Assembly: GCA_003153375.1 (NCBI GenBank)
Contig: PLYM01000202.1
Span: 62,001 to 126,000 of the forward strand
Length of the DNA stretch: 64,000 nucleotides
Origin: Planctomycetaceae bacterium
GTDB taxonomy: Bacteria; Planctomycetota; Planctomycetia; Pirellulales; PALSA-1355
Direction of reading: 5' to 3'
How positions within the stretch are numbered: the first letter of the stretch is position 1; every line of letters starts with the position of its first letter. The notes below the pieces were generated by a model. It ran no database searches. It worked only from the letters and a program-made list of their open reading frames with translations, and was not told where the DNA came from. Positions 42,444-43,262 of this stretch are shown here, one piece after another. The position numbers and the translations under genes were made by a program.

Positions 42444-42476
42444 GCGAAGCGATTCGGCATGTGGTATAACTAGACT

Positions 42477-42800
42477 ATGAACCCGATCACCGGCCATGGT
42501 CCTACCCTCCGCGAAGCCTCACCTTATCTGCGCAATGACGCGGAGTGCATCGCCCGAATCTTGGATGTTGTCGAGCGCAACAGTGTGATCGAAGGCTTGC
42601 CGCCGTTCGACGATGCCTTACTACAATCGCTTCGTCAAGAACTTCAAGCGATCTTCACCGGCTCCTCGCAAGCGGCTCATGGTTGCGCCGAAACGCTCTT
42701 TTTGTGGCCTCGATATAGTCATCGACCCCGCTTGCGGACTCGTCGTAGGCTAGCAAGGGCCTCCCGCTCTGCACTGCCAAAAGATCGGTCAGCAGCTTAA
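42477..42800 (+). CDS. Small VbhA-like protein, candidate antitoxin for the Fic gene
   Basis: A 107-residue reading frame. Residues 1-60 look like a real small protein: helix ECIARILDVVERN, then NSVIEGLPPFDD, then ALLQSLRQELQAIF. This resembles the VbhA-type antitoxin layout, whose inhibitory helix has S/T-x-x-x-E-G/N; here the motif is Asn35-Ser-Val-Ile-Glu39-Gly40, with Asn replacing the Ser/Thr. From about residue 60 on, the frame is antisense to the end of the convergent Fic gene, with 146 bases of overlap. The start is ATG at 42477. VbhA genes are normally on the same strand as fic, so the convergent placement is unusual. The identification rests on a short motif. Confidence 0.4.
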   Translation: MNPITGHGPTLREASPYLRNDAECIARILDVVERNSVIEGLPPFDDALLQSLRQELQAIFTGSSQAAHGCAETLFLWPRYSHRPRLRTRRRLARASRSALPKDRSAA

Positions 42801-43191
42801 TGGTCCTCGCGTTTCCCTCACGAAACGGGTGGATCGTCAGAAATTCGCCCTGAATCTCCGCCGCGGCTCGGCAAAAATCTACGTCATCGTTGACCACGTT
42901 CACGGGCCAGCGCGACAATGTCTCGCGCTCAAACTCAATCATCAGCCGATCCAAAAAATCAGGCGGCGGCCACGTGATCCCCGGCTTGCGAATCCAGACG
43001 GTCCGCCAATGGCCAGCCCATTCATACAGGTCGCCAAAGACAATCGCATGAATGTGCCGCACCAAACCACATGTGAGCGGCGTGTCCGTGCGAATTTCGC
43101 CCAAGAGCCTGGCGTAGGCACGTGCCAGCCCCTGTTCCTCGGCCGACTGAAGCACCGACAGCTCGGCAATACCCAGTTTGTTGACCAGCAC
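42655..43191 (-). CDS. Fic/DOC family protein, N-terminus apparently frameshifted
   Basis: A 178-residue Fic-domain protein from a GTG at 43191. The Fic motif at residues 121-132 is HPFREGNARTIK; compared with HxFx(D/E)GNGRxxR the second Gly is Ala and the last Arg is Lys, while the catalytic His and the anion-hole loop are kept. Before it, YEWAGHWRTVWIRKPG is a flap-like block. Fic enzymes transfer AMP or other nucleotides to target proteins. The frame upstream of the GTG encodes EAQYVDDAQTV, and a plausible N-terminus MAKKPRKHRDRYDG continues in another frame. One base lost from a G run at 43221-43223 would explain this. Confidence 0.7.
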   Translation of the reverse strand: MLVNKLGIAELSVLQSAEEQGLARAYARLLGEIRTDTPLTCGLVRHIHAIVFGDLYEWAGHWRTVWIRKPGITWPPPDFLDRLMIEFERETLSRWPVNVVNDDVDFCRAAAEIQGEFLTIHPFREGNARTIKLLTDLLAVQSGRPLLAYDESASGVDDYIEATKRAFRRNHEPLARSR

Positions 43192-43220
43192 GGTTTGTGC
43201 ATCGTCAACGTACTGGGCCT

Positions 43221-43262
43221 CCCGTCGTAGCGATCACGGTGCTTGCGAGGCTTCTTGGCCAT
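43221..43262 (-). pseudogene. Out-of-frame N-terminal segment of the Fic gene
   Basis: ATG at 43262 opens MAKKPRKHRDRYDG, which fits the start of Fic proteins of this type. After this the frame runs into unrelated residues, while the Fic frame carries EAQYVDDAQTVLVNKLGI immediately afterwards. Adding one G to the three-G run (43221-43223, read on the minus strand) joins the two into a 202-residue protein. The break could be a sequencing error, a pseudogene, or a phase-variable homopolymer. Confidence 0.5.

Follow-up and report, generated by a model that had tools for sequence, protein, structure and literature searches.

A candidate family of convergent Fic–antitoxin gene pairs with an altered Fic signature, and its probably decayed copy in a planctomycete

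A locus in the window (the whole stretch of 64,000 nucleotides analyzed here) very probably represents a family of convergent Fic toxin–antitoxin pairs, in which the predicted inhibitor is encoded by a small gene with its own promoter, and whose toxin half has decayed in this copy. Judging from sequence comparisons, what appears to be new is a GNARxxK subfamily of Fic proteins of the convergent Fic–antitoxin kind, in which the active site is altered and the promoters are predicted to give leaderless mRNAs; its small protein would bind and inhibit a toxic Fic enzyme. The described inhibitory motif of Fic systems is (S/T)xxxE(G/N), the glutamate of which competes with the γ-phosphate of ATP for the second arginine (Arg-2) of the Fic signature (PMC3667792). 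The classification of Fic proteins sought this inhibitory helix upstream of or inside Fic, and 90% of canonical Fics were so classified (PMC3667792). The convergent layout, which the initial annotation regarded as undescribed for Fic systems, is already known from one characterized pair, FicY–AntY of Yersinia pseudotuberculosis, where AntY acts in vitro as an inhibitor of FicY and prevents it from AMPylating ParE (Lu et al., 2020, PMC7479194).

The Locus in the Window

The Fic frame (Table 1) matches the Pfam family Fic (PF02661, E=5e-13) and the PADLOC model PDC-S04 (PDLC04839), the latter with E=7e-45, compared to E=2e-51 for the Fic of locus L039. The FIC fold is present in this subfamily, as seen from the PF02661 match and from a model of the L039 Fic (pLDDT 81), which matches VbhT, Fic-1 and EcFicT, with VbhT (3shg, E 2.6e-7) and Fic-1/AntF (8wt0) as best fold matches. 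The opposite small frame, proposed earlier on account of its N-S-V-I-E-G-L-P-P segment, was confirmed and is conserved in other genomes; in the window, the two frames share 146 bases at their 3' ends. A scan of the window for terminators gave no excess over shuffles, and a sigma-70 scan returned one weak promoter-like site, which lies elsewhere.

Table 1. Features of the Fic–antitoxin locus, in window coordinates.
Feature	Position	Strand	Remarks
Antitoxin-side promoter, extended -10, TGG-TATAAC	42462–42476 (hexamer 42465–42470)	+	directly 5' of antitoxin ATG; predicted leaderless transcript
Small VbhA/AntY-like antitoxin gene	42477–42800	+	107 aa; conserved protein = residues 1–64
Predicted inhibitory loop N35-S-V-I-E39-G-L-P-P	42579–42605	+	invariant residues among homologues
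24-nt deletion site relative to L007 and L038	42665–42666		antitoxin stop and 8 Fic residues gone
Fic domain frame	42655–43230	-	first start codon GTG 43191; 178 aa; truncated or decayed HPFREGNAR[TA][IV]K member
Fic signature HPFREGNARTIK	42796–42831	-	Gly-2 to Ala, Arg-2 to Lys
13-nt deletion site relative to L007	43222–43223		frame shifted between ATG 43262 and Fic domain
Original Fic start codon position	43260–43262	-	preceding 12 nt = GGCCGAACTCGG, without -10 box

A Conserved Small Protein With an Inhibitor-Like Motif

By its conservation, the small gene is a genuine protein gene. A search with the first 65 residues found 20 loci in 14 of the 398 genomes of the class, and the antitoxin alignment, run against 84,980 species genomes, found 22 loci in Planctomycetota and Patescibacteria (Peribacteria/Peregrinibacteria); the two sets merge into 34 distinct antitoxin loci. 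Homologues of the window protein, with E-values down to 9e-23, lie at the equivalent convergent position elsewhere. Antitoxins of the family are 58–80 aa long, and from residue 65 onward the window protein consists of sequence translated beyond its lost native stop. Searches of Pfam, NCBIfam, PADLOC and PHROGs assigned the antitoxin to no family, and the plasmid records searched with it contained none.

Ser36, Ile38, Glu39, Gly40, Leu41 and Pro42 are invariant in 18 homologues, and equally in 23, and position 35 is Asn or Asp in all of them (consensus [ND]S-x-IEGLP). The VbhA-like loop with Asn35 and Glu39 of the initial annotation is thereby supported as a prediction, as residues 36 and 38–42 behave as would be expected of an inhibitory helix. 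The canonical inhibitor motif is nevertheless departed from: its Glu and Gly are invariant, while the S/T position is always Asn or Asp. In a model of the L039 antitoxin (pLDDT 85), a long helix spans residues 20–37 and ends directly before E38-G39 (L039 numbering), and motif and homology together suggest that the loop may contact the Fic active site. An hhalign comparison to other convergent antitoxins gave a probability of 71.5 (E 3.6e-5) over NPYLKD...IEG, in a mixed alignment where the match is carried by planctomycete NPYLKD-type members. VbhA was not found among PDB sequences with the antitoxin profile (best E 0.17), and a PDB fold search with the antitoxin model gave nothing below E 1.9, which is uninformative for a two-helix protein.

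Convergent Pairing Across Genomes

A convergent Fic or Fic remnant accompanies 29 of the 34 antitoxin loci, such that the small gene is indeed conserved beside homologous fic genes, which had been proposed as a test of the pairing; five loci have no Fic, and a Fic in any other orientation was found at none of the 34. Approached from the other side, Fic was found at 12 loci in 11 of 298 genomes (E≤1e-20), and the small gene faces it at every one (12/12), in agreement with the type II toxin–antitoxin rule that no toxin is kept without its antitoxin. All 29 distinct GNARxxK Fic rows, counting L001, L013 and L014, are convergent. The antitoxin gene of class I Fic proteins lies immediately upstream on the same strand, whereas here it lies downstream and convergent. 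A long antisense overlap was considered as a conserved feature and rejected, because intact relatives overlap by 8–50 nt at their 3' ends, the exceptions being L014/L043 (134 nt) and the window.

The antitoxins without a nearby Fic are L009, L019, L024, L025 and L042. L009 and L025 belong to a single genome (G109), where about 1 kb separates them, and the four orphans whose upstream DNA was read (L009, L019, L024, L042) keep a -10 box. Among phage records, no close Fic was found.

The Altered Fic Signature

All members of the subfamily carry the signature HPFREGNAR[TA][IV]K. Compared to the canonical HxFx(D/E)GNGRxxR, the His, Phe, Glu, Asn and first Arg are kept, but Gly-2 is replaced by Ala and Arg-2 by Lys, which turns GNGRxxR into GNARxxK. 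The catalytic loop, initially annotated as intact, is therefore intact with respect to the five retained residues, but not canonical in any member, and with Ala and Lys in the motif the use of ATP is not assured. Since the S/T of the inhibitor is changed to Asn or Asp and Arg-2 of the Fic protein to Lys, both sides of the predicted Glu/Arg-2 contact are non-canonical. This pattern, which comes from one branch of the Fic tree only, might reflect co-evolution of inhibitor motif and Fic active site, and would make the family an enzyme–inhibitor pair in which both contact sides have changed.

Predicted Promoters at the Start Codons

The hexamer TAnnnT stands exactly at -12 to -7 from the ATG in 28 of 31 antitoxin genes, 22 of which have the extended form TGnTAnnnT (usually TGnTATAAT). 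It occupies the same position in 14 of 20 Fic genes, mostly without the TG, with three more one base off. The control frequencies in this DNA are 2/129 for long ORFs and 1.06% across all ATGs; the genes counted are related sequences and not independent trials, and neighboring positions are far less conserved. The box is also present at L081, L083, L085 and L091, which lie outside the set in which the pattern was found, and in four planctomycetota SSxIEG-type genes; the STAIET-type genes read (L073, L077, L092, L108) have no -10 box at -12. In the window, the antitoxin promoter is the sole match with at most two mismatches, where about two are expected by chance, and the last base of its hexamer is C.

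A -10 hexamer occupies positions -12 to -7 relative to the transcription start. Both mRNAs are therefore predicted to start at the ATG, i.e., to be leaderless, and fic and antitoxin are probably each read from their own promoter right at the start codon. As the -10 box of the antitoxin is stronger than that of fic, an excess of antitoxin over Fic would be expected without an operon, and convergent promoters might thus offer toxin–antitoxin genes a simple means of control other than an operon. A precedent for leaderlessness exists in M. tuberculosis, where leaderless mRNAs are common among toxin–antitoxin modules (PMC3898074).

Probable Decay of the Window Copy

Compared to its closest relative, L007, the window has lost 13 nt at about 43222/43223, which breaks the reading frame. 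The ATG at 43262, initially annotated as the Fic start, is consequently in a different frame from the Fic domain; the open Fic frame begins no earlier than 43230, and the conserved N-terminus is removed. The old ATG also lacks its -10 box, while the antitoxin keeps TGGTATAAC. A second deletion relative to L007 and L038, of 24 nt at about 42665/42666 in the overlap, took the stop of the small gene together with eight Fic residues. The overlap of 146 bases results from this loss of the stop codon; it is present in the window as first described, but is a local feature.

Because fic is frameshifted and its -10 box lost, the window pair is probably not functional, and the copy is best read as a probably decayed toxin with a retained antitoxin. 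Damaged fic genes beside intact antitoxins occur at six loci (the window, L023, L038, L045, L054 and L056), and loss of the toxin half with retention of the antitoxin half is what is expected of a toxin–antitoxin pair; errors in draft or metagenome assemblies may be behind some of the broken genes. A similar asymmetry is seen on the Citrobacter plasmid pNFYY328-1 (L152, 1501–1989), where fic is broken and unannotated and the convergent antitoxin is still annotated.

Alternative Readings

The proposal that the small ORF is a chance frame antisense to the 3' end of fic, with a coincidental IEG motif, could draw on its overlap with the Fic frame and on its last ~40 residues, which are read-through without homology. 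It has next to no chance of being correct, given homologues in two phyla, invariant residues located in the N-terminal half outside the overlap, orphan copies that persist where Fic is absent, and a positioned promoter; conservation refutes it. It is also quite improbable that the window still holds a functional pair, with Fic translated from the GTG at 43191 and the enlarged overlap providing antisense control of both transcripts. The 178-aa frame retains the conserved residues, departing at 2 of 49 columns that are otherwise invariant, and core helix 1 of the Fic fold begins, in the L039 model, beyond the segment that was lost, but the frameshift cuts into a conserved N-terminus, the old start has lost its -10 box and the C-terminus its eight residues.

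Another reading concerns the whole subfamily, the Fic proteins of which might not be AMPylating toxins but perform other chemistry, with the small protein acting as a regulator or cofactor instead of an antitoxin. The invariance of GNARxxK is in its favor, and so are two precedents: EcFicT, which has an altered motif and showed no detectable AMPylation (PMC5033356), and the complex of Fic-1 and AntF, which is reported to be a deAMPylase (PMC13327609). However, the motif retains His, Glu, Asn and Arg-1, AMPylation is inhibited by the related AntY, and the loss of fic beside a surviving antitoxin is the pattern seen for toxins; we consider this reading unlikely, though worth keeping in mind. A convergent toxin–antitoxin family with a decayed window copy is hence the preferred reading.

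Proposed Mechanism and Comparison With Known Systems

According to the toxin–antitoxin reading, the fic and antitoxin genes, which face each other with their 3' ends overlapping by a few codons, would be transcribed into separate leaderless mRNAs, the antitoxin from a stronger extended -10 and fic from a weaker box. The antitoxin would present a helix ending in [ND]-S-x-I-E-G-L-P, the glutamate of which might reach into the active site of Fic and pair with the Lys that stands in place of Arg-2. There it would displace the γ-phosphate of ATP, in the manner of VbhA, SoFic and NmFic.

The family resembles FicY–AntY in its small gene, which meets fic convergently at its downstream end and carries a Glu motif that is predicted to be inhibitory here (S22TAIET27 in AntY). 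It differs from that pair in the motif [ND]SxIEGLP, the signature GNARxxK, the -10 boxes at -12, overlaps of 8–50 nt (mostly 4 in the FicY–AntY type) and its hosts, Planctomycetota and Patescibacteria. With VbhT–VbhA, EcFicT–EcFicA and Fic-1–AntF it shares a stand-alone Fic domain and a separate small protein with a Glu that is predicted to be inhibitory here too, and VbhT, EcFicT and Fic-1 are the closest solved folds to its Fic proteins; in these class I pairs, however, the antitoxin is upstream and co-directional (PMC3667792). PDC-S04 matches the Fic protein and no PADLOC model matches the small partner; the naming suggests that PDC-S04 is a single-gene candidate, and a PDC-S04 system had no defence activity when assayed (PMC12409345). 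AS1 of Sofic (PMC12249575) was weighed as a precedent and set aside; the accessible part of that text gives no strand.

A Wider Group of Convergent Fic Pairs

Distant Fics with the canonical HPFREGNGR[LIVF][AS]R also face a convergent small gene, which bears SSxIEGIYC or SSTAIETG. Their hosts include other planctomycetota classes, Proteus, Aeromonas, enterobacterial plasmids, integrative elements and IMG/VR contigs, and in a Marinomonas plasmid record the small gene likewise faces Fic; the E. coli and plasmid records consulted label it "hypothetical protein". STAIET-type pairs (L073, L077, L092, L149 and others) have the motif and layout of AntY and fall inside the convergent clade. Among 44 control rows of Fics with other motifs, the antitoxin either precedes fic in the same direction or was not found, and none is convergent (0/44).

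In a maximum-likelihood tree of 68 Fic domains (36 convergent and 19 upstream rows; midpoint root only), where FicY itself is represented by its STAIET-type relatives only, convergent and upstream Fics are split by one branch (support 98/94), and a single change is needed. The nearest upstream group are the Patescibacterial L088–L090, of SSALEG type, consistent with a single relocation of the antitoxin gene from one end of fic to the other. Tentatively, then, these pairs could possibly constitute a distinct cross-phylum class of Fic systems: two facing leaderless genes with an Asn/Asp inhibitor matched to GNARxxK, perhaps with a different chemistry or nucleotide, which would have arisen once, when an antitoxin gene located upstream, as in L088–L090, moved to the convergent position. 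Convergent pairs of this sort may cover part of the approximately 10% of canonical Fics in which no inhibitory helix had been identified, and a search of the opposite strand downstream of fic gave a partner for every Fic of the two subfamilies examined.

L093 and L097 (IMG/VR), in which a Fic with HPFREGNGRAAF directly follows a large methyltransferase-like ORF and no small partner was found, form a long branch on the convergent side of the tree. In E. coli ET151 (L149, 1680–3770) and on a Citrobacter plasmid (L150, 1680–3767), an AntY-type convergent pair directly follows an integrase gene, and this place within integrative elements and plasmids looks like a cargo spot.
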